Assembly: GCA_949879765.1 (NCBI GenBank)
Contig: CATLBQ010000010.1
Coordinates: 1-52,391, forward strand
DNA length: 52,391 nt
DNA from: an uncultured Bacilli bacterium
GTDB lineage: Bacteria; Bacillota_I; Bacilli_A; ML615J-28; CAG-313
Direction of reading: 5' to 3'
Positions within the stretch are counted from its first letter, which is position 1. Every line of letters begins with the position of its first letter. A program made the position numbers and the translations under genes. A model generated the notes under the pieces. The model was not told where the DNA came from and made no database searches. It was given only the letters and a program-made list of their open reading frames with translations. Below are positions 5,046-22,682 of this stretch, piece after piece.

Positions 5046-8000
5046 TTATTTTGTTATGGCCATATAAATTATTTTACTATTATAGTAATATGACCAAACA
5101 CCCTTAGAACTTGGGGTGACTCCTTTCCCTAATAATATAGTAGATCCCTGCCCTGGTTTATGAGACCATCTTCCATCATTATGCTGAACCATAAAGTGAT
5201 AATCATATTGTCCAATGCGTTTAACCATATCATCTAATGTTACCCTTACTGCTATTCTATATTCGTTAGATGATATTTTGCTATCCCAATTATTAATAAT
5301 TCTCCCCTTTCTTCCCAATTTTTTTAAATCTTTTATTACTTGATTAGCAATTTCATTGACAGAATAACCTATACAATTTATTTTATCCAATCCGACATGT
5401 GTCCAAGATTTCAATCCTAATGCATGAGCATAACAATTAAATTTTTTTGAATTAGACTTAACATATTTTTCAGCTGCTCCATAATAAGTTGAATAATTTT
5501 TGCTACTACATCCAGTTAATCCTATTAACCCGATTCCAATAGGTATAATTATCCACCAAATATCTCCAGAATAATCCGCTCTAACAACTGGGTTATTCTC
5601 ACAATAGCTATATAGATTATAACTAAGCGCTGTACCAGTAACACCAAGATATTCTACATCATCACTACATTGCCATCTACCTATTGTAGCATCATAATAT
5701 CTTGAATTACAATAATACAATCCCACTTCTTGGTCATAATAGTAACCTCTATACCGAAATGGATTGATATCTTTAATTGCATTCGTACCTTCTATAGATG
5801 CTATATTGCCATAGGCATCATATGTATAAGCTGCTACTTTTTCATAATTCGCATTGTAAATACCAATGATATCGCCCATAAAAGTAGTTTGATAAAAGTA
5901 ATTATGATAACCATTAGATAGACTATTATACTCACTAAGCCCAATCAATTTACCACTTTCATTATAATAATAATAAAGTTGGTAATAAGATGTCACCTCA
6001 TCTTCTTCAAAGTAACGAATACGTTCACCCTGAATTCGATTATCCAGTATGATATAATCGTGCCACTCTTTTCGTTCTAATGTAAGATAGTCATAAATAT
6101 ATTTTGCATACCGAATGCCACTTTCATTATATCTATATTCAATATAGAGATTATCTACATAATCATATTGCTCCACCAAAGTTCTAGCCATATAGGTATA
6201 TGATTTGATTAATGTTTGATTTTGATAAACTTGAATGAGATTTCCTAATTCATCATAAACATATTGAAATTGATCAAAAATCATTCCATTTTCACTTGCT
6301 TTGATTGTTTTGGCAATCAATTGGTCTTTATAAGTAGAATGATAAGTATAACTAACATATGGCTCTAAATTTTGATACTCTAAATAACAAATAGGTCGGC
6401 TAATACTAGTAATATTACCAGAACTATTATATGTATAATAGCAATCATAAATTATATTTTCATCTGTTATAACTGTATCCTGACTAAGAAGGAAATAGAC
6501 ACGGTGATGAACCAATTCATCTAAACCATTATACTCAAATATCTCCATCATGACATTGGTTGTACTATCTGCGTTATAGATTTCCTTTCTCATCATCGTA
6601 ATTAGACCATTTTCATATGCATAATCAATTCTTTCATTTTTGTATGTTACACTTGCGACTTGACCATTAGCATTCAAATTGGTGATTTGTGTAAATAAAA
6701 TGTTCTCTTGGATAATCTTTTCAATGGTTGTATCTTGGGCATCTTCACTTGCTTTATTAGAATAACTAAAATCATTAAAATATTCAATAATATCTCCTGC
6801 GTCGTCTTTTGCCACAGACTTATAATAAGCTTGTTGATACCATTCAACTAAAGTGGATTGTTTTTCATTATCTTGATTGTACTCAAAATAAATTTGCGCA
6901 CCTTGATTAGTAACGATTTTAACCAAACGATTCATTATATCATATTCATAGTTATATGAATAACCCAGTGGACTATTTTTTATTTCAAGTAAATTACCAG
7001 ACAAATCATATTTCAAACTAAATTGGCTGATTAAGTTTGTACCATTATGGTATTGAATGGTGATGGGAAGATTAAATTCATTATAAGTATATGTAATTGT
7101 ATAGCCATTAGCGTAGGTATATTTTGTAATATTATCTGTTTCAACACCAAATTCATATAAATATTGATAACTAACCATGACATCCCCATTAATAGATATA
7201 GAGGATATATGTCCAAAATCAGTATATGCAAGAGAAAACGTTGCAGAAGAAGTAAATATATCCGTAATACGATCTAATGTATCATACACATAACGGATGG
7301 TTGATAAATTTGTACTTGTTCCTTGCATTTCTTTCATTACTGAAATTAATCTTTCAAAGATATCATACTGATATGAAGTAGTAACACCATTGGTTGTGCT
7401 AGATGAAACTTGTCCACTGACTGTATCATATAAATAAGTAGTATTTCCATAGATTGGATTTAATTCTTGAATAATGTATTGATAATCATATCCATACTGA
7501 CCAGCATTATCATATACTTTATGTTTTGGCTTATAATTTCTTAATCCATCCTCAAGTCCATCAGCTTGTTGTATTCGCTCAGCTAAAGCATCTAAATCTG
7601 TTACTTTTTGACGATCTTCTGCGCTAAGTAATTCGTATGCAATTGAAGCATCATAAATCAAATAACGATTTTCCAAGGTAATCTCATCTATCTCTGGTAA
7701 ACCTTCTGTTATTTGAATGGTATCTATTGCCTCACTTGTTTGCTCTGTTTGCTCTTGCTTCATCAAAGATATATTATCAATACAAAACGCTTCGTGTCCA
7801 TATACATAAGCTTCAACGGTTATGCTTGTATAATCATATGGCGCTTCTATTTCTAGAAAAACACTATCTATCGTAAATTTATCTTCTCGTAGTTCTTGAA
7901 GTGTTTTACTATCGATAGAAAAACCGCTTGCCGTTCCATCTGCTTCTTGAAATACAATACGAAATTGTATATAACCATTTTTTAAAAATTCATCATAATA

Positions 8001-11000
8001 AATAGGTGCATACCAGGATTGAAATATATATTTATCTCCTTTTGTGCCTGTTGCTGCAATCGTTTGTGATGCATTTTCTACCGATGTAACTACTGCACAA
8101 CTATTACCAAATGCACTTTGATAGGATGGTTCTAATATAAATGGAGAACTAGTATTCCGATATACATATAACCAATTGTCTATTCTCTCATAACTAGAGG
8201 TTTGTTCGAATGAGCCATTTTCAATCAAGTTATAACCTACATTTTTACCAGTTTGATTGAGATTAATATATTCAAAATAGGCATATCCTATATCATCATG
8301 ATGAAGACTAATGATTACTTCAGTTTCTTCGATTATTTCAAACTCTAGAGCATAAGGTCGGTAGGTACTACTTTTAGTCACAGGTGACTGTCTTGAGATT
8401 ACATTTAATTTAGATGCATGGGTAGAATTTGCGGTTTCTACTGTTAAATAAGCGCCTTGGTTAGTTCCATTGCACTGAATCAATGCACTGAGATAATACT
8501 TTCCTTGTGGTAAAACTACTTTTTGATGATAAGCAAGTTCTTTGGTTAAAGATGTACGATTGATACCTATCTTATTTCCTAGTAGGATAAAGTTACTTTT
8601 AAATTTAGAAATAGAACCATTTTGATTTGTTGTTGCATACCAAATATCATTAGATTGAAAGGTCGGATCTTTTAAGTAATTGGTATAATGAGGATTACCC
8701 ATTTTTACATCTACCAAATTGTGTTGATTGGTTGGCGTATTTTCAAACTGATAATACATTGTATTTAAATGAGAATCTTCCATTTTAATGATATTACCAT
8801 ACATATCAAACCAGTATCTTTGAACATATCCAGTAGCGTCCTTTGTCATCGTTTTGTTGGTTTGATACAGATAACTCTTTTGATCTGTGAAACTTGTTAC
8901 ACCTGGCATATAGGATTGATAAGAGAGAACTTGCATTTGTTGTAAAAAGGTATCCGCATTTTCAGCATAAATAAATTGTTTTCCTAGTTCATATGCGTTT
9001 AGTTTACCATAATAAATATTAGAAATCAATTGATGTGTATTATAGTTGATATGGATACTCGCATCCTTTTCATAATCGGCACTCCCTTGATATCTGACTT
9101 TAACTTCTATTAAATTTTGTTGTTGATCATAAATATAATTGAGTGAATAAGCCAATGTTGTAGGATTAGGTTTTAATTGTTGTGGTGTATCATAATCCCT
9201 CATATTAAACTCTATCTTGTTCAATAATCCATTTTGTTCATCATATATAAAGTTAGCCTGATTATACGCATTATCTACTACCTTATTGATACAAACTACA
9301 CCATTTGTAGTTGTATAGTCAATGGTAATGGCATTATCAATATATAAACTTTCTAATATTTTGGTTAAGTATAACACTGGTTGTTGGCTAAAAACAGATT
9401 CGAAAATCCGTATATCTTCTCCATACAAAATATAAGAATCCGCTACATTCGGATGAACAACCAATTTATATTCATCCGAATTTGGACTAATATATGTATA
9501 CGCATTCACGTATTCTGGCTGATTGGTTGCTGGTTTAATAAAAGTAATTTGACTACCATCACCTCTTGTATATATATAACGATTGTCTACCCATTCTAAT
9601 GTTTCATGATAACTGATGGAAAATCCTCTACCATAAGGTTTTGTTGCGTTCGCATTTGAGACATTGATACTTCTATAATGATGACTAATATTCCAAGTTA
9701 GATTATCATTCATAAAATGTGAATCATTAAACCCATACGTTAATTCACCCGTTGCGAGATTGATTTTTGCATCACCTGCACGTCCAAGATGAATATCCTC
9801 AAAAGAAACGCCGACATCTTTGTTGACTACACCAGTAATCCGAATAATTGGCACAGCTTGACTGGAATAAGTTGACAAATATACATAACCTGCTGAATTT
9901 GGACTAAAGTATAATAAAGCCTTATTTTCGTTATTCAAAAATAACTTATTATAGGGGATGCTTACTTCTTTCGTTGAATAAAAAGCCTCTTGAACATAGC
10001 TTTTTGTAAATGCAGTATAATTTGTACCATCCATACTATCATATGCATTTGATGTATTGAATCTATAAATACTATAAGTTCCTATCCCATCAAATCCATG
10101 ATTGGTTAACACAATATCGGCATGACTAAAATCAACTGAACCAGTAGGTTTAGATAACTCTACAATACTAAATACTCCACCTGGTTCCCAGTCTGGTTTC
10201 CCAACCAAAATATTATTGCTATAAGGATCGGTTGCTGGATATTCTTTGAAATAAGCCTTCGCGCGATATGTCAATGCATAGTCATCACAAATGGTTTCTA
10301 CAATTGGATCAATGACTACTGGATAAGTTGCCAATTCTAACCATTCATGATTGGGTATTACTTGGAAAAAATAGGTAGATTCACAAATTGGTTTTACCTC
10401 TACTAAGATATCATAACTGATTTGATTAACTGAATCATACATAAAAAATGGGTCTATTGTATAGATAGTATCTCCTTCATCATTGATAAAAGCAAATTGA
10501 TTTACCCCATTTTGTTCCATTTTTAATCCATCTGTATATAAATAAAAACCAAAATAAAAATCTTTTTGATACGCCTGAAGGGTAATGTTTTCTTTAAAGA
10601 CATTTCCTGAATGATAATAAGCTAAGTCCACATCGTCATAATGCAAAAATACATCTTTATATTGAATCGTATCTCCTTCTTTTACGGCTCTTGCGGATTT
10701 TGCTTGATCAAAAGACCAACTTAAGTGATACCCTTGATAATTGATTTTTATTGTTGATGCATTATCCCATTGTTTAGGATAGTATACTTGACTATTTTGA
10801 TTGGTTGAAATATATTGTTGTGTATTTTCTGTTATTTCATTTTCAAATTCAAGATATTCATTGCCATTAAAATAATGAATATCTTTATCATAATATACAT
10901 ATTCTAATGTATTATCTGGTTGTAAATATACCTTCAGATTTCTTTTTCTCAAATAAGGTAATTCGATTTTTTCTACATTTGTTTTTTCATTTTCTTGTTG

Positions 11001-11132
11001 AATATATGTAGGGCCCTTTGTCATATTAATGCTAGCAGCTAAACTGAATCCAGCATATGGTGGAATAATAAAACCCAAAACAAGTAACACAACTACTATT
11101 TTTGTAAATATACTTAATTTTCTTTTTTTCAT
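5046..11132 (-). CDS. Secreted WapA-like RHS/YD-repeat protein with variable C-terminal domain (candidate polymorphic toxin)
   Basis: A 2028-residue surface protein. Order: signal peptide (about 1-33); DNRLRE-like beta region about 281-440 (YRAKAYFKEYP, YSNNILVGK); GDAKINLATGELTYGF opening of the shell near 450; many YD repeats about 600-1740 (YDLSGNLLEI, YDIMNRLVKI, YDELGNLIQV); an NGSFE carbohydrate-binding-like module about 960-1110; an inserted helical module about 1142-1190 with the pattern AYELLSAEDRQKVTDLDALA seen in many Gram-positive surface proteins; RHS-associated core ending RYYDATIGRWQC...NLYSYCENNPVV...DYSGD (about 1740-1857). The 174-residue tail has a hydrophobic stretch ending LTGC (Cys 1875), then NCYAHALGL (Cys 1900) and DYHFMVQHNDGRWSHKPG (His 1979, His 1991), suggesting a Cys/His enzyme such as a cysteine protease. 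Such tails are swapped effectors in related proteins. GGAG lies 6 bases before the ATG. Confidence 0.9.
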   Translation of the reverse strand: MKKRKLSIFTKIVVVLLVLGFIIPPYAGFSLAASINMTKGPTYIQQENEKTNVEKIELPYLRKRNLKVYLQPDNTLEYVYYDKDIHYFNGNEYLEFENEITENTQQYISTNQNSQVYYPKQWDNASTIKINYQGYHLSWSFDQAKSARAVKEGDTIQYKDVFLHYDDVDLAYYHSGNVFKENITLQAYQKDFYFGFYLYTDGLKMEQNGVNQFAFINDEGDTIYTIDPFFMYDSVNQISYDILVEVKPICESTYFFQVIPNHEWLELATYPVVIDPIVETICDDYALTYRAKAYFKEYPATDPYSNNILVGKPDWEPGGVFSIVELSKPTGSVDFSHADIVLTNHGFDGIGTYSIYRFNTSNAYDSMDGTNYTAFTKSYVQEAFYSTKEVSIPYNKLFLNNENKALLYFSPNSAGYVYLSTYSSQAVPIIRITGVVNKDVGVSFEDIHLGRAGDAKINLATGELTYGFNDSHFMNDNLTWNISHHYRSINVSNANATKPYGRGFSISYHETLEWVDNRYIYTRGDGSQITFIKPATNQPEYVNAYTYISPNSDEYKLVVHPNVADSYILYGEDIRIFESVFSQQPVLYLTKILESLYIDNAITIDYTTTNGVVCINKVVDNAYNQANFIYDEQNGLLNKIEFNMRDYDTPQQLKPNPTTLAYSLNYIYDQQQNLIEVKVRYQGSADYEKDASIHINYNTHQLISNIYYGKLNAYELGKQFIYAENADTFLQQMQVLSYQSYMPGVTSFTDQKSYLYQTNKTMTKDATGYVQRYWFDMYGNIIKMEDSHLNTMYYQFENTPTNQHNLVDVKMGNPHYTNYLKDPTFQSNDIWYATTNQNGSISKFKSNFILLGNKIGINRTSLTKELAYHQKVVLPQGKYYLSALIQCNGTNQGAYLTVETANSTHASKLNVISRQSPVTKSSTYRPYALEFEIIEETEVIISLHHDDIGYAYFEYINLNQTGKNVGYNLIENGSFEQTSSYERIDNWLYVYRNTSSPFILEPSYQSAFGNSCAVVTSVENASQTIAATGTKGDKYIFQSWYAPIYYDEFLKNGYIQFRIVFQEADGTASGFSIDSKTLQELREDKFTIDSVFLEIEAPYDYTSITVEAYVYGHEAFCIDNISLMKQEQTEQTSEAIDTIQITEGLPEIDEITLENRYLIYDASIAYELLSAEDRQKVTDLDALAERIQQADGLEDGLRNYKPKHKVYDNAGQYGYDYQYIIQELNPIYGNTTYLYDTVSGQVSSSTTNGVTTSYQYDIFERLISVMKEMQGTSTNLSTIRYVYDTLDRITDIFTSSATFSLAYTDFGHISSISINGDVMVSYQYLYEFGVETDNITKYTYANGYTITYTYNEFNLPITIQYHNGTNLISQFSLKYDLSGNLLEIKNSPLGYSYNYEYDIMNRLVKIVTNQGAQIYFEYNQDNEKQSTLVEWYQQAYYKSVAKDDAGDIIEYFNDFSYSNKASEDAQDTTIEKIIQENILFTQITNLNANGQVASVTYKNERIDYAYENGLITMMRKEIYNADSTTNVMMEIFEYNGLDELVHHRVYFLLSQDTVITDENIIYDCYYTYNSSGNITSISRPICYLEYQNLEPYVSYTYHSTYKDQLIAKTIKASENGMIFDQFQYVYDELGNLIQVYQNQTLIKSYTYMARTLVEQYDYVDNLYIEYRYNESGIRYAKYIYDYLTLERKEWHDYIILDNRIQGERIRYFEEDEVTSYYQLYYYYNESGKLIGLSEYNSLSNGYHNYFYQTTFMGDIIGIYNANYEKVAAYTYDAYGNIASIEGTNAIKDINPFRYRGYYYDQEVGLYYCNSRYYDATIGRWQCSDDVEYLGVTGTALSYNLYSYCENNPVVRADYSGDIWWIIIPIGIGLIGLTGCSSKNYSTYYGAAEKYVKSNSKKFNCYAHALGLKSWTHVGLDKINCIGYSVNEIANQVIKDLKKLGRKGRIINNWDSKISSNEYRIAVRVTLDDMVKRIGQYDYHFMVQHNDGRWSHKPGQGSTILLGKGVTPSSKGVWSYYYNSKIIYMAITK

Positions 11133-13146: not shown

Positions 13147-13782
13147 ATGCCTTATCACTTACTTTCTGATGCATTATGCAACAAGTATACAAAAGTAGTG
13201 TCTTATCACACAGGAGATATTGTCTTCAATCAAGGAGAACTTTGTCAACACATTGGTTTTATTGAAATGGGGGAAATTCATGTCATTACCATCACCCATA
13301 CAGAAAAAGAAGAAACCATTACTTCATTATCTACAGGAGATGCTTTTGGTGATTTGCTCCTTTTTTCTGATCACCCTTATTATCTAGGTCATGCCATTTG
13401 CAAAAAAGAAACCGTTGTACGATATATTGAAAAAGAACAGTTGCCATTGTTATTTCAAAATGAGGCATTTTTCACTGCCTTTTTATCTATGATTTCTAAT
13501 AAAGCAATGCAACTCAAAAATGAAAATAAATTATTACGTCACAGCAACTTAAAAGATCGAATGATGCATTATTTGATTGAAGAACAACTTCGCACCCATT
13601 CTTCAACAATTCAGATTGAAAATATCACTGCTTTTGCTACCCTTCTTTCTTTTACGAGACCTACTGTTTCAAAAGCATTGCAACAACTTGTAAAAGAAGG
13701 AGAAATTGAAATACGTAAAAAAGGACAAACCTGCTGGATTCGGCTACTTCACCCAGATTATATTTACTTTCAATCCCAATAA
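13147..13782 (+). CDS. Crp/Fnr family transcriptional regulator
   Basis: A 211-residue regulator. N-terminal cyclic-nucleotide-binding-type beta-barrel (about 10-115: YHTGDIVFNQGE, IEMGEIHVI, STGDAFGDLLLFSDHPY), a long dimerisation helix, then a winged helix-turn-helix (about 150-205: TAFATLLSFTRPTVSKALQQLVKEGEIEI). There is no Fnr-type Cys cluster at the N-terminus and the canonical cAMP-binding RS pair is not evident, so the effector is unknown; Firmicutes members often bind other ligands or none. It is divergent from the ABC transporter genes with a perfect palindrome between them, which suggests it controls both. GGAG lies 11 bases before the ATG. Confidence 0.88.
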   Translation: MPYHLLSDALCNKYTKVVSYHTGDIVFNQGELCQHIGFIEMGEIHVITITHTEKEETITSLSTGDAFGDLLLFSDHPYYLGHAICKKETVVRYIEKEQLPLLFQNEAFFTAFLSMISNKAMQLKNENKLLRHSNLKDRMMHYLIEEQLRTHSSTIQIENITAFATLLSFTRPTVSKALQQLVKEGEIEIRKKGQTCWIRLLHPDYIYFQSQ

Positions 13783-15779: not shown

Positions 15780-17576
15780 TTATTTATTTTCTTTTGAAAA
15801 TGCCTTTTTTGCGCCATAAGTCGTATGAAGTAACTGACGGGCAAGATGGCTATTAGGTTCACCTAAAAATTCTTGATAAGCACGTAATACTTCTGGATTT
15901 TCATGAGATTTATGAAGTGGTGCATCTTGGTCAATTTGATATAGTACACTTGCACGAAGTGTTCTAACATCTGTACATTCTTGTACTTTTGCATTGACGA
16001 TAGGTTGACCACCACCATTAATACATCCACCTGTACATGCCATCACTTCAACAAAGTGGTATTGTTTTCCTGATTCTATACGTTTGAATAATTCTGGAAT
16101 ATTCACAGCACCATGTACTACAGCAACATTGACTTCATGACCTGCAATGGTTAGTGTTGCTTCTTTGATGCCATTTTCTACACCACGAACAACTGTAAAA
16201 TCAACTTTGTCTTCATTTTCAGAATCTAATACATGAGCAACCGTACGAAGAGCAGCTTCCATTACACCACCTGTTGCACCAAAGATAACACCAGCACCTG
16301 TATATTGAGCAAGTGGACTTGTTGGTGTATAATCTTCTAATGCATTAAAGTCAATTCCTTGACGTTTGACAAGACGTGCATATTCTCTTGTTGTAAGAAC
16401 ATAATCAATATCTCTTAATCCGTCATTTTCCATTTCAGGACGATTGGCTTCATATTTTTTCGCAATACAAGGCATAATAGATACTACTTTAATTTTAGCA
16501 GGATCAACATTCAATTGCTTTGCATAGTAATGTTTAATCATTGCACCTTGCATTTGTTGTGGAGATTTACAACTAGATAAATTTTCTAAGTATTGTGGAT
16601 AATATTGTTCAATATAACGAATCCAACCTGGTGAACAGCTTGTAATCAAAGGAAGCGCTACTTGTTCGCCATTTAATGCTTTTGTCAAACGGCCAATAAA
16701 TTCAGTTCCTTCTTCCATAATAGTTAAATCGGCACCAAAGTTGACATCAGTTACATCATCAAAACCAAGTTCATGTAAAGAAGCATATAATTTTCCTTCA
16801 CAGTTGGTTCCAATTGGGTTACCAAATTCTTCGCCGATTGCGGCACGAACAGCTGGTGCAAATGTAGCCACTACATAATTTTCATGGTTGGTTAATTCTT
16901 CTTCGACAAAATCAATTTGTTCTTTTTCACGAATAGCACCTGTTGGACAAGCTTGAATACATTTACCACAATAAATACAACCTGCATCCGCAATATCATG
17001 ATTTAATGCACTACCTACACAAGTAACGAATCCTCTTTGGTTAAAGTTCAACACACCTGTGCCAGAAAGTTTTTCACACGCACCAATACAACGACCACAA
17101 AGTACGCATTTAGATGAATCAAAAACAATGGCATCACTTTCATTGATAATAGGTAATTTCTTAGCAAATTGACCAGATTCAGCCATCTCATTGTTGATAG
17201 AAAATCTTCTCATTAAAGCCAATAATTCACAATTATGTTCTCTTGGACATTTCCAACAATCAAAACGATGGTTCGCTGCAATCAATTCTAATGTTTGACG
17301 AACTGCCGTTCTTACTCGTTTAGAGTTAGTTAAAATAGTTGCTGTTCCTTCACGATTTAAAATAGAACCTACTTCAACAGAACAAGAGTTTTTAAGTGAA
17401 CGCATACCTACAATTTCAACTACACAAACACGACATGATGCATTTTCGTTGATGTCTTTTAAAAAGCAAAGACGAGGAATATCAATGCCTACTGAATCAG
17501 CTGCTTGCATAATTGTATAATTAGCAGGAACAGTTACTGTTTTTGAGTTAATTGTTATTGTTACTAATTTTTCCAT
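15780..17576 (-). CDS. hndD: [FeFe]-hydrogenase catalytic subunit (HndD/HydA type, NADH-linked)
   Basis: A 598-residue catalytic subunit. Order: [2Fe-2S] ferredoxin domain about 1-75 (CRVCVVEI, SCSVEV); His/Cys [4Fe-4S] motif HRFDCWKCPREHNC about 95-110; two [4Fe-4S] motifs CVLCGRCIGAC and CIYCGKCIQACP about 150-215; H-cluster domain about 225-575 with P1 TSCSPGW, P2 MPCIAKKYEA and P3 ACTGGCINGGGQP. It reduces protons to H2 or the reverse, taking electrons through the NuoF/NuoE-like partners; in this architecture it is usually electron-bifurcating with NADH and ferredoxin. AGGAGG lies before the ATG and 12 bases separate it from the NuoF-like gene. The P1 motif has Ser where classical enzymes have a Cys pair. 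Maturases HydEFG are not in the window. Confidence 0.96.
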   Translation of the reverse strand: MEKLVTITINSKTVTVPANYTIMQAADSVGIDIPRLCFLKDINENASCRVCVVEIVGMRSLKNSCSVEVGSILNREGTATILTNSKRVRTAVRQTLELIAANHRFDCWKCPREHNCELLALMRRFSINNEMAESGQFAKKLPIINESDAIVFDSSKCVLCGRCIGACEKLSGTGVLNFNQRGFVTCVGSALNHDIADAGCIYCGKCIQACPTGAIREKEQIDFVEEELTNHENYVVATFAPAVRAAIGEEFGNPIGTNCEGKLYASLHELGFDDVTDVNFGADLTIMEEGTEFIGRLTKALNGEQVALPLITSCSPGWIRYIEQYYPQYLENLSSCKSPQQMQGAMIKHYYAKQLNVDPAKIKVVSIMPCIAKKYEANRPEMENDGLRDIDYVLTTREYARLVKRQGIDFNALEDYTPTSPLAQYTGAGVIFGATGGVMEAALRTVAHVLDSENEDKVDFTVVRGVENGIKEATLTIAGHEVNVAVVHGAVNIPELFKRIESGKQYHFVEVMACTGGCINGGGQPIVNAKVQECTDVRTLRASVLYQIDQDAPLHKSHENPEVLRAYQEFLGEPNSHLARQLLHTTYGAKKAFSKENK

Positions 17577-17588
17577 AGTTTTTTCCTC

Positions 17589-19382
17589 CTATTGAACAAC
17601 GATTGCATTTTTAGGGCAACCTTTTACACAACTACCACATTTGATACATTTGGCTGGATCAATAAAGTGTTGTTGTCTAAGTTCTCCGCTAATGGCATCA
17701 GCAGGACAATTTCTCTTACATTTTGTACAACCAATACATTGATCAGTAACTACAAATGTAAGTAATGGTTTACATACACCAGCAGGACATTTCTTATCTA
17801 CTACGTGTGCCACATATTCATCACGGAAATTGGCCAATGTAGAAAGTACTGGATTTGGTGCACTTTGTCCAAGACCACAAAGTGAAGCATCTTTAATCAT
17901 TAATGCAAGATTTTCAAGTGTAGTTAAATCTTCCATTGTACCTTCACCTTTGGTAATTTTCTTTAAAATTTCAAGCATTCTCTTGGTACCTTCACGACAT
18001 GGTGTACATTTACCACAAGATTCATCAACTGTAAAATCTAAGAAGAAACGAGCAACGTCAACCATACAGTTATTTTCATCCATAACAATCATACCACCAG
18101 ATCCCATCATAGATCCAAGTGCAATCAAATTATCATAATCAATTGGTGTATCTAAATGTTTTGCAGTTAAGCATCCACCAGAAGGTCCACCTGTTTGAAC
18201 AGCTTTAAAAGCTTTGCCATTTGGACATCCACCACCAATATCGTAAATGACTTCTCTAAGCGTTGTACCCATTGGGATTTCTACTAAACCTGTATTTTTA
18301 ATTTTTCCACCTAAAGCAAATACTTTGGTTCCTTTTGATTTTTCAGTACCAATACTTGAGAACCATTCCCAACCATTAAGAATAATTACTGGAACATTTG
18401 CTAGTGTTTCAACATTGTTGATAATAGATGGTTTTCCCCATAATCCTTTTTGTGCTGGGAAAGGTGGTTTATTACGAGGCATACCACGTTCACCTTCAAT
18501 AGAAGCAATTAATGCTGTTTCTTCACCACAAACAAAGGCACCAGCACCTAAACGAATATCAATATCAAAGTCAAATCCACTACCAAAAATATCTTTACCA
18601 AGTAGTCCATATTCTCTAGCTTGTTCAATTGCATATTGTAATCTTTCTACAGCAACAGGATATTCAGCACGAATATATACATAACCCATTGTTGCACCAA
18701 TTGCATATCCTGCAATCGCCATAGCTTCAATCACACTATGTGGATCTCCTTCTAAAACAGAGCGGTCCATAAATGCGCCTGGGTCACCTTCATCGGCATT
18801 ACAAATTACATATTTTTGATCTGCTTGATTTTTCGCACATAATTCCCATTTCAATCCAGTTGGGAATCCTCCGCCTCCACGACCACGAAGACCTGCTTTT
18901 TTCATGATATCAATCACTTGTTCAGGAGTATATTCAGTTAAACATTTTCCAAGTGCTTGATATGCATTTCTACCAATAGCTTCATTGATATCAAATGGGT
19001 TAATCATACCACAATTACGAAGAGCGATACGAAGTTGTTTGTTATAAAAGCCAACTTCTCCAAAAGATTTGATTTTAGCAAGCTCTTCTTCTGTTGCTTC
19101 TTTATACGCTTTTGGTTCATAGATACGACCCTTTAGTAGGTGTTCTGAACAAATTTTAGCAACATCATCTATAGCTACATGTGAATAAAATGTTTGATCA
19201 GGATATACGATAACGATAGGCCCTCTTTCACAAAGTCCAAAACATCCAGTTTGAATGATTTGAATTTCGTTATCTAAACCTAGTGCTTTTACATTTTCTT
19301 CAAATGCTTCTTTAATTTGTTTTGATTTTGATGATAGGCACCCTGTCCCACCACATACTAATACTTGTGCACGTACTAACAT
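17589..19382 (-). CDS. hndC: NuoF-like diaphorase subunit of the hydrogenase (HndC/HydB)
   Basis: A 597-residue flavoprotein. N-terminal thioredoxin-like [2Fe-2S] domain about 1-110 (CGGTGC and TGCFGLCERGP); NuoF core with the FMN/NAD loop GLRGRGGGGFPTGLKW about 170-185 and NADEGDPGAFMDR; SLBB domain; [4Fe-4S] motif ESCGKCTPCREGT about 455-467; C-terminal 2[4Fe-4S] ferredoxin with CIGCTKCKRNCP and CIKCGSCVKGCP. It oxidises or reduces NAD(H) and passes electrons to the hydrogenase subunit. Length and the extra C-terminal ferredoxin are typical of HydB/HndC rather than respiratory NuoF (about 430 residues). It lies 11 bases after the HndB-like gene. No oddities. Confidence 0.95.
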   Translation of the reverse strand: MLVRAQVLVCGGTGCLSSKSKQIKEAFEENVKALGLDNEIQIIQTGCFGLCERGPIVIVYPDQTFYSHVAIDDVAKICSEHLLKGRIYEPKAYKEATEEELAKIKSFGEVGFYNKQLRIALRNCGMINPFDINEAIGRNAYQALGKCLTEYTPEQVIDIMKKAGLRGRGGGGFPTGLKWELCAKNQADQKYVICNADEGDPGAFMDRSVLEGDPHSVIEAMAIAGYAIGATMGYVYIRAEYPVAVERLQYAIEQAREYGLLGKDIFGSGFDFDIDIRLGAGAFVCGEETALIASIEGERGMPRNKPPFPAQKGLWGKPSIINNVETLANVPVIILNGWEWFSSIGTEKSKGTKVFALGGKIKNTGLVEIPMGTTLREVIYDIGGGCPNGKAFKAVQTGGPSGGCLTAKHLDTPIDYDNLIALGSMMGSGGMIVMDENNCMVDVARFFLDFTVDESCGKCTPCREGTKRMLEILKKITKGEGTMEDLTTLENLALMIKDASLCGLGQSAPNPVLSTLANFRDEYVAHVVDKKCPAGVCKPLLTFVVTDQCIGCTKCKRNCPADAISGELRQQHFIDPAKCIKCGSCVKGCPKNAIVVQ

Positions 19383-19393
19383 TTTTTATACCT

Positions 19394-19768
19394 CTACTTT
19401 GCTGCCTTAATCACTTCTAATGTTTTTTCTGTTACAACATTGCCACCAATAATATGTTGTTCAATAATGGTTTCAACATCTGCAACATGAACTTCTGCAT
19501 AAGTTGTACGATTTCCTTGTGCATCAAAAACTTCTACAACTGGTTCTAATGCACATTCACCCAAACAACCTACTTGTGTCACTGTTACATTATCTAAATT
19601 TTTTGCGGCAACTTGATCAACAAATGCAGCAAGTACAGGTCTTGCTCCAGCAGTGATTCCGCATGTAGCCATACCAACAACGACACGATAACCATCTTTA
19701 GCAGTACGTAGGTTAATTTTGCTAGCGGCTTCTTCTCTAATTTTCTTTAATTCTGCTAAACTTTTCAT
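19394..19768 (-). CDS. hndB: HndB-like [2Fe-2S] thioredoxin-fold protein
   Basis: A 124-residue protein with the thioredoxin-like [2Fe-2S] fold: MATCGITAGARPVLAAF and VTQVGCLGECALEPVVEV, then TYAEVHVADVETIIEQHI. It matches the HndB subunit of NADP/NADH-reducing [FeFe]-hydrogenases, and also resembles the N-terminal domain of the downstream NuoF-like protein. It probably relays electrons within the complex. AGGAGG lies 5-6 bases upstream of the ATG. It directly precedes hndC and follows the second HATPase gene by 32 bases. Confidence 0.88.
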   Translation of the reverse strand: MKSLAELKKIREEAASKINLRTAKDGYRVVVGMATCGITAGARPVLAAFVDQVAAKNLDNVTVTQVGCLGECALEPVVEVFDAQGNRTTYAEVHVADVETIIEQHIIGGNVVTEKTLEVIKAAK

Positions 19769-19800: not shown

Positions 19801-20352
19801 TTATTCATTTTCTAATTCACCCGCAAGGCCTGCGGTTATATATTCTTTGATCCAACTCATAACAGAAGGTTCTGTGAGTGGAATACCTTCTAATATTTCT
19901 TTAATTTGCTGGGTATCTATTTCAAATACAGGACAACTTTTTTCTTTATGTTTCATCTTAAAATGGACATCTACTTGATAAGGGTTAATCACCAAAACAA
20001 AAATGCTTTCCGCAATATCTCCTAAAGGAATAGCATCTATGTGATGCGTATACATTTTGGCATGAATACAAGTTCCTACACCCACAGTCGATTGAATGTG
20101 TACATATCCACCAGTTTGTTCACAGGTTTGAATAAACAAAGGAATTCCTACCCCTACTTTTCGTGTTTTTCGCGATGTAAAGAAAGGGTTGGTGACTTGT
20201 TCTAACACTTCACGACTCATACCACAACCATCATCTTCAATCCAAATTTCAATATCATTTTCATTTTCTTCAATTGTAACTTGCACACAACTTGCATTAG
20301 CTTTAAATGCATTGCTAGCAACATCTAATATATGTAGTGATAAATCAACCAT
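19801..20352 (-). CDS. GHKL ATPase-domain protein in the hydrogenase operon
   Basis: A 183-residue protein. N-terminal 110 residues form a histidine-kinase-type ATPase: N box DVASNAFKANAS, G1 WIEDDGCGM, NPFFTSRKTRKVG and G2 GVGIPLFIQ, then GGYVHIQSTVGVGTC. No dimerisation/phosphoacceptor helix is present, so it is not a complete histidine kinase. The C-terminal 70 residues (VFEIDTQQIKEILEGIPLTEPSVMSWIKEYI) are an added domain of unknown role. The start ATG overlaps the PHP gene stop by 8 bases. It may act in a phospho-relay or partner-switch that senses redox state or regulates the hydrogenase; this is inferred from position only. Confidence 0.82.
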   Translation of the reverse strand: MVDLSLHILDVASNAFKANASCVQVTIEENENDIEIWIEDDGCGMSREVLEQVTNPFFTSRKTRKVGVGIPLFIQTCEQTGGYVHIQSTVGVGTCIHAKMYTHHIDAIPLGDIAESIFVLVINPYQVDVHFKMKHKEKSCPVFEIDTQQIKEILEGIPLTEPSVMSWIKEYITAGLAGELENE

Positions 20353-21064
20353 GATTTCTCTTTCCTTTGATGGCTTTAAACAAGCTTTCTATCGTTAAAT
20401 CTTCTAACTCTATGGTATGGATAGGCTCTAAAATATCTATAATTTGATGTGCATCAGAGTTTCTCAATATGCTATATTCTAGCGATTCTAGTTGATGGTT
20501 GAATCTTTCAATATTGGTATTAGCATTGACTTCAATTGCATCAAAAATATCCTGATAAATGGTATGTAATTTTTCAAAAATGTCTGACGGATATTTTTCA
20601 ATATGTGCTAAAATCATAATACCTTGATACTGATTCATCATATGACGCAATTGGAGTAAGCCAATATTGGATGAACCCATTAAACTGACTTGATATTGAT
20701 TTACAATGTCATCAAAAACATCAAATAAATGTTGTTCACCATACATCACTTCATCATGCATAGTTTTATGCAAATAGCACTCTATTTCTTTTTGAAATCT
20801 TCTTGCTTCTTCAAAACTAGCAAACAAGCACACAACATGATATTTTTCTTTTACTTCTATTTCCGCACCTGGGACAACAAGCATTTCATAACTCTCTTTT
20901 AATTCTTCAATGACATCTAATTGCAGACAAGAATTGTGATCTGTAATAGCAATAATATTCAACTCTTTTAACATCGCCATATTCAAAATATTATTTGGAC
21001 TCATTAATACGTCTGCACAAGGAGATAAAGCCGTATGAATATGCAAATCATAAAAATATTTCAT
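20345..21064 (-). CDS. PHP-domain phosphoesterase-like protein
   Basis: A 239-residue PHP-superfamily protein. Metal ligands in order: DLHIHTALSPCADVLMSP (HxH, residues 6-23), AITDHNS, GAEIEVKEKYHVV, LAHIEKYPSD and RNSDAH. The HxH, DH, E, H and DxH set is intact, so phosphoesterase or nuclease-like metal chemistry is plausible. PHP proteins of this kind occur with hydrogenase operons of anaerobic Firmicutes and Thermotogales, role undefined. Its ATG overlaps the TGA of the upstream DRTGG gene (ATGA) and its own end overlaps the HATPase gene: strong translational coupling. Confidence 0.88.
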   Translation of the reverse strand: MKYFYDLHIHTALSPCADVLMSPNNILNMAMLKELNIIAITDHNSCLQLDVIEELKESYEMLVVPGAEIEVKEKYHVVCLFASFEEARRFQKEIECYLHKTMHDEVMYGEQHLFDVFDDIVNQYQVSLMGSSNIGLLQLRHMMNQYQGIMILAHIEKYPSDIFEKLHTIYQDIFDAIEVNANTNIERFNHQLESLEYSILRNSDAHQIIDILEPIHTIELEDLTIESLFKAIKGKRNHG

Positions 21065-21384
21065 TCTGCGTAAATATGTCTGATTACCTCAACCACATTC
21101 TTTGTTGTTGTGATAATCATAATCCCTTCTTCTTCCGCCTTTTGAATCATATCTTTTGTAGGTTGGACATCTTCTGCTAGTACAATAACGGGTAAGTCCA
21201 ATAAACTTGCAACGGCTATCGTATTCATATTAGACATAATGGTTAAAAACATATTTTTTTCCTTGGCATGTCCCATGACATGACTTAATAAATCACCCGC
21301 ATAAATCCCATCAAATTCTACATCTGCTATTTGTGTAGTTACAATCGTCCCTTTTATTTTTTCTAAAATTTCTAAGACTTTCAT
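21061..21384 (-). CDS. DRTGG-domain protein (second copy)
   Basis: A 107-residue stand-alone DRTGG-type domain: VTTQIADVEFDGIYAGDLLSHVMGHA, FLTIMSNMNTIAVASLLDLPVIVLAED, then AEEEGIMIITTTKNVVEVIRHI. DRTGG domains are named after a motif found beside CBS domains and phosphotransacetylases and are thought to be ligand or nucleotide binding. The ATG at 21384 is preferred over an upstream GTG because AGGGG lies 5-6 bases before it. It is a diverged relative of the DRTGG gene two places upstream, with a HATPase gene between them, so the pair may be a duplication. Confidence 0.8.
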   Translation of the reverse strand: MKVLEILEKIKGTIVTTQIADVEFDGIYAGDLLSHVMGHAKEKNMFLTIMSNMNTIAVASLLDLPVIVLAEDVQPTKDMIQKAEEEGIMIITTTKNVVEVIRHIYAE

Positions 21385-21396
21385 TGGCACCCCTAT

Positions 21397-21816
21397 TTAC
21401 TTGCTATAAATAGTAATATCTAGTGTTGTTCCCTTTGGTGAAGAACTAATATGAAATTCATCACTTGCATTTTTAATATTCATTAATCCCATTCCTGCAC
21501 CAAATCCATAATAAATTGCTTGATTGTTGGCTGTAGAAAATCCAGGTTGAAGTGCTTGCTCAATATCTGTAATTCCAGGGCCTGTGTCTTGAAAACGAAC
21601 AAAAATCTTTTCATCATCAATCTCGTATTTGCATACGCCTCCATAAGAGTGAATCACCACATTGATTTCAGCCTCATATATAGCGATAGAGACTCTTTTA
21701 ACAATCGGTTTGGCAATTCCTTCTTGGATGAGCGTTTTTTTTATAAAACTAGACACATTACCAGCATTTTCTAAATCCATTGCTTCAATCGCAAATTCAC
21801 CAGTTATTCTTCCCAT
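21397..21816 (-). CDS. Anti-sigma-factor-like GHKL ATPase in the hydrogenase operon
   Basis: A 139-residue single-domain ATPase of the RsbW/SpoIIAB-like GHKL type. N box SIAIYEAEINVVIHSYGG, G1 VRFQDTGPGITDIEQAL, G2 YGFGAGMGLMNIKNASDEF, ending SSPKGTTLDITIY. There is no receiver or sigma-binding partner in the operon, and no STAS anti-anti-sigma gene, so a classical partner switch is incomplete here. ATG shares bases with the TAA of the upstream DRTGG gene. Such kinases also act on protein Ser/Thr targets; one of the neighbouring DRTGG proteins is a possible target (inference). Confidence 0.85.
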   Translation of the reverse strand: MGRITGEFAIEAMDLENAGNVSSFIKKTLIQEGIAKPIVKRVSIAIYEAEINVVIHSYGGVCKYEIDDEKIFVRFQDTGPGITDIEQALQPGFSTANNQAIYYGFGAGMGLMNIKNASDEFHISSSPKGTTLDITIYSK

Positions 21817-22190
21817 TATAAATCACTTAGCCCCTTGATTCCTGCGTGATGTAATTTTCCACAAGTAGAAAAAGACACATCATTTGTACCCAAAACAATA
21901 ATACCTGAGGCATAAGCTTGTTCTAGAACTTGAGGAGAAGGGATTTTCCCTCTTGTAATTAAGATAGCGGCAAAATCGAGCATTTCAGCAGTTCGAATAC
22001 TTTGCATAGTTACATTACCAGTAATCAAAATACCTGCTTCACAAAATCCTTCGGGTGCTTCTCTTAACACCATCAAAGCATCGCTCATCAAATCACCACT
22101 AAATGCATATTTCAATTCAAAATTAGCAGGTTGTATAGAAGGGGTAAGTTCTTTTCCCTTAATGACTTCTATAATTTTTTGAACAGTCAT
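21816..22190 (-). CDS. DRTGG-domain protein (first copy)
   Basis: A 124-residue DRTGG-domain protein: MTVQKIIEVIKGKELTP, ELKYAFSGDLMSDALMVLREAP, GILITGNVTMQSIRTAEMLDFAAILITRGKIP, ASGIIVLGTNDVSFSTCGKLHHAG. Similar proteins are sometimes annotated as HPr-kinase-like because of the shared DRTGG domain, but no Walker A kinase motif is present, so that name would mislead. Start choice is uncertain: ATG 22190 gives the usual family start; a TTG at 22202 follows directly after the NuoE stop. It ends in a TAATG overlap with the GHKL ATPase. Confidence 0.8.
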   Translation of the reverse strand: MTVQKIIEVIKGKELTPSIQPANFELKYAFSGDLMSDALMVLREAPEGFCEAGILITGNVTMQSIRTAEMLDFAAILITRGKIPSPQVLEQAYASGIIVLGTNDVSFSTCGKLHHAGIKGLSDL

Positions 22191-22202
22191 ACTATGTACC
22201 AA

Positions 22203-22682
22203 TTATTGTAACTTATCGTACACTTCTTTTGCGGTTTTCACTGTTGCAGTACCATAAACGTCATCGCCAACTGTAAATACTGGAGCAAGACCACATGCAC
22301 CAATACATCTTGTTTCCACTAATGTAAACTTACCATCTTCTGTGGTTTGGTTAGAACCAATATTTAACAATTTTTTGAATTCATCAATTACGGTTTGTGA
22401 ACCACGTACATAACAAGCCGTACCTAAACATACACCAATAACATGTTGTCCTTTAGGTTCAAGTGTAAACCGAGAATAAAAAGTTACTACACCATTAATC
22501 TTAGCAATACTTTCTCCTAGTTCTTCTGAAATAATTTTTTGTACTTCTAAAGGAATGCAACCAAAGATAGTTTGGGCATCATGAAGTGTAGGCATAAGAG
22601 GACCTGGCTTTTGCTTGTGTTCAGCAATTTTTTGTTTTAATAATTGAATTTGTTCTTCTGACATTTGTAATTTAACTGACAT
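22203..22682 (-). CDS. hndA: NuoE-like [2Fe-2S] subunit of the hydrogenase (HndA/HydC)
   Basis: A 159-residue NuoE-family subunit. The thioredoxin-like domain carries the cluster cysteines in GVCLGTACYVRGSQTV and VETRCIGACGLAPVFTVGDDVYG; the helical N-terminus has LMPTLHDAQTIFGCIPLEVQ and VTFYSRFTLEPKG. It helps the NuoF-like subunit pass electrons to and from NAD(H). ATG at 22682 follows a perfect AGGAGG, which rules out the 22-codon upstream extension. It is the first gene of the nine-gene operon, with a strong promoter starting 30 bases upstream; hndB, hndC and hndD come only after five regulatory-looking genes. Confidence 0.93.
   Translation of the reverse strand: MSVKLQMSEEQIQLLKQKIAEHKQKPGPLMPTLHDAQTIFGCIPLEVQKIISEELGESIAKINGVVTFYSRFTLEPKGQHVIGVCLGTACYVRGSQTVIDEFKKLLNIGSNQTTEDGKFTLVETRCIGACGLAPVFTVGDDVYGTATVKTAKEVYDKLQ

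Follow-up and report, generated by a model that had tools for sequence, protein, structure and literature searches.

A candidate signalling module without its group D hydrogenase gene in an NADH-linked [FeFe]-hydrogenase operon of an uncultured Bacilli bacterium

Introduction

Putative sensory [FeFe]-hydrogenases of group D are encoded, in many Clostridia, upstream of bifurcating hydrogenases and are surrounded there by a number of partner genes, as in Thermoanaerobacter mathranii (TamHydS; PMC8163306) and other Thermoanaerobacter spp. (PMC3608648). The papers on Thermoanaerobacter and C. thermocellum place a group D hydrogenase, a histidine kinase, kinases and phosphatases at this position (PMC3608648, PMC3492117). 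For TamHydS, a histidine-kinase-like ATPase has been noted beside the hydrogenase gene, and the signal route is called an open question (PMC8163306). Here we describe a related operon in a 52,391-nucleotide stretch (the window) of the uncultured Bacilli bacterium GCA_949879765.1 (contig CATLBQ010000010.1), in which five genes, encoding two DRTGG proteins (DRTGG1 and DRTGG2), two GHKL-type ATPases (GHKL1 and GHKL2) and a predicted PHP metallo-phosphoesterase, lie within an NADH-linked [FeFe]-hydrogenase operon. In contrast to the published operons, a group D gene is absent from this one and from its whole genome; the accessible portions of the published description do not mention PHP or DRTGG proteins.

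Other described systems share some of these features. The gene list published for Halsa_1862-1871 of Halanaerobium hydrogeniformans (hydrogenase, NADH dehydrogenase, ferredoxin-like, histidine kinase, NuoE, PHP, iron-sulfur binding hydrogenase and anti-sigma regulatory factor Ser/Thr kinase) holds most of the genes considered here, but the operon keeps a second hydrogenase, by annotation probably a group D sensor, and no module or function was proposed (PMC4237134). Group C HydS-SpoIIE-HydA2 (hydS/hfs) clusters also combine a sensory-type hydrogenase with a phosphatase and a catalytic hydrogenase (PMC11837493), but the hydrogenase belongs to another group, the phosphatase is a PP2C rather than a PHP enzyme, and DRTGG proteins are lacking. 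In Vallitalea, a group C1 hydrogenase and a histidine kinase are found beside Rnf (PMC6163223). With the SpoIIAB/RsbW-SpoIIE partner-switching systems the locus shares GHKL1, an ATPase of SpoIIAB type with its catalytic residues; STAS substrate, sigma factor and PP2C are however missing, and DRTGG proteins and PHP may stand in their places. Branched-chain ketoacid and pyruvate dehydrogenase kinases, which are GHKL Ser kinases tied to a redox enzyme complex, provide the nearest folds to the GHKL2 ATPase domain but differ in their remaining domains; this predicted fold similarity serves as a lead only. The open literature yielded no definition of the module, no link of PHP or DRTGG proteins to group D hydrogenases and no sensor-less version, although older subscription surveys may describe more. 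This agrees with an earlier note on this DNA, made from the sequence alone, which knew of no defined role for the set.

A gene set linked to group D hydrogenases

In a survey of 80 named genome loci plus further genomes, Clostridia and several Bacilli families (f10, f13, f16, f21) carry an extra gene of about 390-470 amino acids between the genes for GHKL1 and DRTGG2. Its product has two N-terminal 4Fe-4S motifs (Fer4), an H-domain (Fe_hyd_lg_C) and a C-terminal FeS domain, with no PAS domain; the four H-cluster cysteines are retained, and the positions of the proton-transfer cysteine (Cys299) and of Met353 are occupied by other residues. TamHydS and other putative sensory hydrogenases of group D (M2e) have the same published architecture (PMC8163306). 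Judged by sequence, the extra gene encodes a group D ('putative sensory', TamHydS-type) [FeFe]-hydrogenase. In complete form the module is composed of DRTGG1, GHKL1, the group D [FeFe]-hydrogenase, DRTGG2, PHP and GHKL2, in this order.

The association is close to one-to-one. Among 299 genomes of a Clostridia phylum, PHP is present in 121 and the group D gene in 123; both occur in 116, PHP only in 5 and group D only in 7. The co-occurrence odds ratio amounts to 567, versus only 8 for PHP and HydA in the same genomes (the Fisher p-values take no account of relatedness). Such co-occurrence names candidate partner proteins for the transfer of an H2 or redox signal from group D, the step described as open in the TamHydS paper (PMC8163306). 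That parts of the set occur near hydrogenases in other anaerobes, as the earlier note had stated, is borne out by the same gene order, with group D, in Clostridia operons.

The window holds the five partner genes together, but between GHKL1 and DRTGG2, where relatives have the group D gene, just 12 nucleotides are left (21385..21396, minus strand). The genome contains a group C-type hydrogenase and HydA matches and no group D gene. The locus is thus a sensor-less variant and not a full member of the group D signalling module as defined from relatives. Relocation of the group D gene can be ruled out, since it was absent from the 27 genomes checked that have a sensor-less module (the window's family, related lineages and one separate case, G267). 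The group C hydrogenase locus is likewise unsupported as a general replacement sensor, several sensor-less module genomes having no such locus. On a tree of HndC the operons without the sensor gene group, apart from G267, in a single clade (39 rows, support 95, a few module-free operons included), and at least two changes are needed to explain them. Because group D-bearing operons surround the sensor-less ones on this tree, which is not rooted for the purpose, the sensor-less state likely arose by losses of the group D gene. As a natural experiment, the Bacilli version allows sensor and switch to be told apart.

Group D-type proteins of some other Bacilli (L203, L208-L210, L214, L217, L218) have a diverged H-cluster loop, with CEC replacing TPC/MPC and the four cluster cysteines kept; these may be sensors that have lost the ability to bind the 2Fe subsite.

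Conservation, swaps, fusions and remnants

The order of the nine operon genes is identical in every same-genus and same-order genome with PHP, with DRTGG2 missing from one of them (L030). When compared with two same-genus genomes, the five genes show ratios of nonsynonymous to synonymous substitution (dN/dS) of 0-0.19, a range like that of the hydrogenase subunits. This recurrence of the gene order and the purifying selection on all five genes argue that the set is not a product of chance. Among some 90-100 relatives hardly any variation is seen at the ATP-binding and putative catalytic residues of the two GHKL proteins, at the metal ligands of PHP or in the DRTGG motifs. Catalytic residues are equally conserved whether or not a module has the group D gene, which indicates that the remaining genes of the sensor-less version still do something.

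Variation among relatives suggests how the parts may be wired. The GHKL1 of three Clostridia modules that lack group D (L234-L236) carries two N-terminal CBS domains; the sensor thus seems exchangeable, and the swap points to GHKL1 as its receiver. PHP and GHKL2 are fused into a single protein in six loci (L087 and L219-L223). Reduced operons L182 and L186 retain only DRTGG2 and GHKL2, which, together with a decaying module at L200, marks these two as the output end. At L200 (4607-11088, genome G283), the module appears in mid-decay, with a DRTGG1 fragment of 46 amino acids and stop codons in PHP, and DRTGG2, GHKL2 and the hydrogenase intact; L201, from the same genus, has a full module with group D. 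The GHKL2 gene lies between NuoE-like and HndB-like genes in the window and in Clostridia, including at L226, where a selenocysteine formate dehydrogenase serves as catalytic subunit, and in the sampled operons it is nearly confined to those with an HndB-type subunit.

The five proteins

All genes described in this section are on the minus strand. Pfam matches above cut-off were obtained for GHKL1 (HATPase_c_2, 1.2e-12), PHP (PHP, 1e-6) and GHKL2 (HATPase_c, 6e-15), and the two DRTGG matches of the window fall under the Pfam gathering score (22.0 and 20.6 versus 25.2 bits). For DRTGG1 (DRT1, about 124 amino acids, 21816..22190; the open reading frame list starts it instead at a TTG at 22202) the assignment is nevertheless secure, because 26 of 35 family members match the DRTGG profile and the AlphaFold model (mean predicted local distance difference test score, pLDDT, 93.9) matches known DRTGG structures. 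The best Foldseek match is 2IOJ (DRTGG, E-value 6e-7), followed by the CBS-pyrophosphatase structures 3L31 and 3L2B and then by HPr kinase. Its invariant motifs are DLMSD, TG..Q..RTA and R.K. DRTGG2 (DRT2, about 107 amino acids, HPr-kinase-N-like, 21061..21384; alternative start GTG at 21390) is a probable DRTGG protein by homology to DRTGG1 (phmmer 7e-7) and by weak Pfam matches to Hpr_kinase_N (5.5e-5) and DRTGG (4e-4); its DLLS motif is conserved.

GHKL1 (21397..21816) is a SpoIIAB/RsbW-like ATPase whose N-box Glu48 and Asn52 and G-boxes are conserved, in relatives that have the group D gene as in those that lack it; as an anti-sigma kinase it scores 51 bits against the NCBIfam spIIAB model, for which the cut-off is 135 bits. 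The PHP protein (239 amino acids, 20345..21064) conserves the candidate metal ligands His8, His10, Asp42, His43, Glu68, His154, Asp204 and His206, and its nearest NCBIfam families, all below cut-off, are PHP enzymes of nucleoside-phosphatase/RNase type. GHKL2 (183 amino acids, 19801..20352) is modelled with a pLDDT of 90.6 and has a conserved C-terminal region; the nearest folds include, besides the dehydrogenase kinases mentioned above, histidine kinase ATPase domains. It does not qualify as a two-component histidine kinase: Pfam finds only HATPase_c and no HisKA, the model has no dimerization and histidine phosphotransfer (DHp) hairpin, and no receiver gene is present in the operon. The description of both GHKL proteins in the earlier note as ATPases without receivers is accurate, neither having a phospho-acceptor or receiver domain.

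Association with hydrogenase and other redox enzymes

In the window's class, PHP occurs in 37 of 392 genomes, and all 37 also encode HydA; of the 145 HydA-matching genomes, 108 are without PHP. The proportion is higher in the Clostridia phylum (111 of 213 HydA genomes). Most of 20 HydA operons fetched from PHP-free genomes contain none of the set, and simple hndA-hndC-hydA operons none of the five genes. The earlier note had made its proposal depend on how widely bifurcating hydrogenase operons carry the set. By count in the class it is absent from most, but the dependence is one-sided, PHP not being found without HydA, and this pattern is that of an optional regulator and not of a required hydrogenase part. 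Obligate subunits or maturases are accordingly rejected, in line with the earlier statement that none of the five is a known subunit or maturase.

Neither is the set peculiar to hydrogenase. It is also found beside formate dehydrogenase, Rnf and acyl-CoA dehydrogenase/electron transfer flavoprotein (Etf) genes, that is, beside NADH/ferredoxin enzymes; complete or near-complete modules adjoin Rnf at L074, L076 and L102 and acyl-CoA dehydrogenase/Etf genes at L099. The undescribed hydrogenase-modulating circuit suggested in the earlier note is supported in part: the five genes behave as a single conserved unit, regulatory in appearance and linked with redox enzymes, but the link is not restricted to hydrogenase.

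Proposed function and alternatives

Our preferred reading, to which we give about an even chance, is that of a dedicated signal-transduction module for enzymes coupling NADH and ferredoxin, present here in a sensor-less version with the NADH-linked [FeFe]-hydrogenase around it, and consisting of a kinase input, a DRTGG switch and a diaphorase output. The input would be GHKL1, acting as a SpoIIAB-like ATP-dependent Ser/Thr kinase set by a sensor, which may be the group D hydrogenase in most genomes and, in some, the CBS pair; for the window, the probable input is nucleotide state, perceived via DRTGG1, or the redox state of the hydrogenase. The kinases would modify the DRTGG proteins, a possible site being the Ser that is invariant in their DL(M/L)S motif, and PHP, as a phosphoesterase, would reverse this modification. 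DRTGG2 with GHKL2 would then act on the NuoE/HndB/NuoF diaphorase unit and adjust the flow between NADH, ferredoxin and H2. The kinase and phosphatase activities, their substrates, the phospho-sites and the target are what we infer in this scheme; read from the sequences themselves are the conservation, gene order, group D co-occurrence, absence of the sensor here, sensor swap, PHP-GHKL2 fusion, DRTGG2 plus GHKL2 remnants and intact catalytic residues.

Several points weigh against this reading. GHKL domains are also found in non-kinases such as Hsp90 and MutL, and small molecules are common substrates of PHP enzymes. The closest solved folds match only the ATPase half of GHKL2 (TMq about 0.4). 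By gene list and Pfam, no STAS or sigma factor gene is present in the window operon, STAS proteins being the classical substrates of SpoIIAB-like kinases. The module of the window comes without a recognizable sensor, most HydA genomes of its class do without PHP, and four complete six-gene modules have no adjacent redox enzyme (L225, L230, L231, L238). At L225, the flanking genes are a TsaB/TsaD-like gene and alanine racemase/YjeF genes.

A wider claim can be made only tentatively, and with less confidence than the preferred reading: that these proteins represent a new class of bacterial phospho-signalling, with DRTGG substrates, stand-alone GHKL kinases, a PHP eraser and exchangeable sensors (group D, CBS pair or none), tuning hydrogenase, formate dehydrogenase, Rnf and Etf directly on the protein. 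If the module works as proposed, it would constitute a general control layer on the ferredoxin/NADH balance of fermenting gut and rumen bacteria, which sets their H2, formate and acid output.

GHKL1 could alternatively be an anti-sigma-type partner-switching kinase that changes the transcription of hyd/rnf/fdh operons by way of a regulator or sigma factor from another locus; the DRTGG proteins would be the antagonists and PHP the phosphatase. SpoIIAB is indeed its best NCBIfam match, a SpoIIE-type PP2C phosphatase, the usual opponent of such kinases, is encoded at the group C sensory hydrogenase locus of the same genome, and group C/D hydrogenases have been proposed as transcriptional H2 sensors (PMC8163306, PMC11837493). 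Yet the missing sigma factor and STAS genes are missing also among the module genes of the other loci examined, and a protein-level target better fits a GHKL2 embedded among enzyme subunits and fused to PHP. We regard a transcriptional switch as unlikely.

Slightly less probable still is a second-messenger circuit, in which the DRTGG proteins bind a nucleotide that PHP makes or destroys, and in which the GHKL proteins are not kinases but ATPases that switch conformation, driven by nucleotide. The CBS-DRTGG unit of clostridial pyrophosphatase binds nucleotide, and it is this unit (3L31/3L2B) that the DRTGG1 fold matches; the CBS pairs gained by GHKL1 in some genomes and the nucleoside-phosphatase/RNase-type neighbours of PHP, though all below cut-off, point the same way. 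Against it, GHKL1 retains the SpoIIAB-like catalytic Glu and N-box, and the module has no nucleotide-making enzyme.

We consider it improbable that the GHKL ATPases are assembly or repair factors, chaperones of the Hsp90/MutL fold that load or protect the Fe-S/FMN subunits of the diaphorase unit. The placement of the GHKL2 gene between NuoE- and HndB-like genes and its near confinement to HndB-containing operons would suit such a role, but many operons of the same hydrogenase lack all five genes, the near one-to-one link is to a sensory-type hydrogenase and not to assembly, and complete modules exist away from such enzymes. Mere hitch-hiking of unrelated genes held together by operon stability, which the four stand-alone modules might suggest, is very improbable given the repeated independent settings with NADH/ferredoxin enzymes, the sensor swap, the fusions and the purifying selection that persists after loss of the group D gene.

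Operon layout and neighbouring loci

The operon comprises nine genes on the minus strand (22682-15780): hndA, DRTGG1, GHKL1, DRTGG2, PHP, GHKL2, hndB, hndC and hydA. The first, hndA/hydC (22203..22682), encodes a NuoE-like [2Fe-2S] thioredoxin-fold subunit (Pfam 2Fe-2S_thioredx, 1.6e-45). The five middle genes lie between hndA and hndB as the earlier note had placed them, and its stretch, 19801-22190, runs exactly from the end of GHKL2 to the start of DRTGG1. They are followed by hndB (19394..19768; 2Fe-2S thioredoxin-like subunit, Pfam 6.5e-6), by hndC/hydB (17589..19382; by profile search a NuoF-like NADH/FMN subunit with N-terminal 2Fe-2S and C-terminal ferredoxin domains) and by hydA/hndD (15780..17576), the group A [FeFe]-hydrogenase catalytic subunit (NCBIfam FeFe_hydrog_A6, 758 bits, just below the cut-off of 765). 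Acetobacterium woodii HydA1 (7Q4V) is the closest solved relative of this HydA, a likeness at sequence level.

Three of the four junctions among the five genes are overlaps. The ATGA/TAATG type reported earlier applies to DRTGG1/GHKL1 (TAATG) and DRTGG2/PHP (ATGA), whereas PHP and GHKL2 overlap by 8 nucleotides and GHKL1 and DRTGG2 are separated by the 12-nucleotide gap. Strong ribosome-binding sites precede hndA (aggaggt upstream of the ATG at 22682), hndB and hydA, whereas those of the five middle genes are weak, which suggests a lower, coupled expression of the five. Rex sites numbered 12 in the window versus 17 expected by chance; one match, at 22682, overlies the hndA ribosome-binding site, and a Rex site at the operon promoter was rejected since the match count does not exceed chance. 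Promoter and terminator scans of the window also remained at chance level.

Between about residues 310 and 333, HydA of the window has the L1 motif TSCSPGW, in which Ser takes the usual cluster-ligand position as in A. woodii HydA1; downstream of L1, SSCKSP is found versus SSAKSP in the C. pasteurianum enzyme, a cysteine exchange. The same genome has a second [FeFe]-hydrogenase locus of hfs/hydS type (L199, 5353-13500; about 79353-87500 of contig C2), with genes for an AdhE-like protein, an APH-like kinase, two small 2Fe-2S proteins, the group C-type HydS (561 amino acids), the SpoIIE-type PP2C phosphatase and a HydA2-like hydrogenase. Elsewhere in the window, next to an ABC transporter and some 2 kb downstream of hydA, the plus strand carries a gene for a Crp/Fnr-type regulator (13147-13782), opposite in orientation to hydA, and a secreted protein of 2028 amino acids with RHS-type YD repeats is encoded at 5046-11132 (minus strand), beside a small lipoprotein gene.

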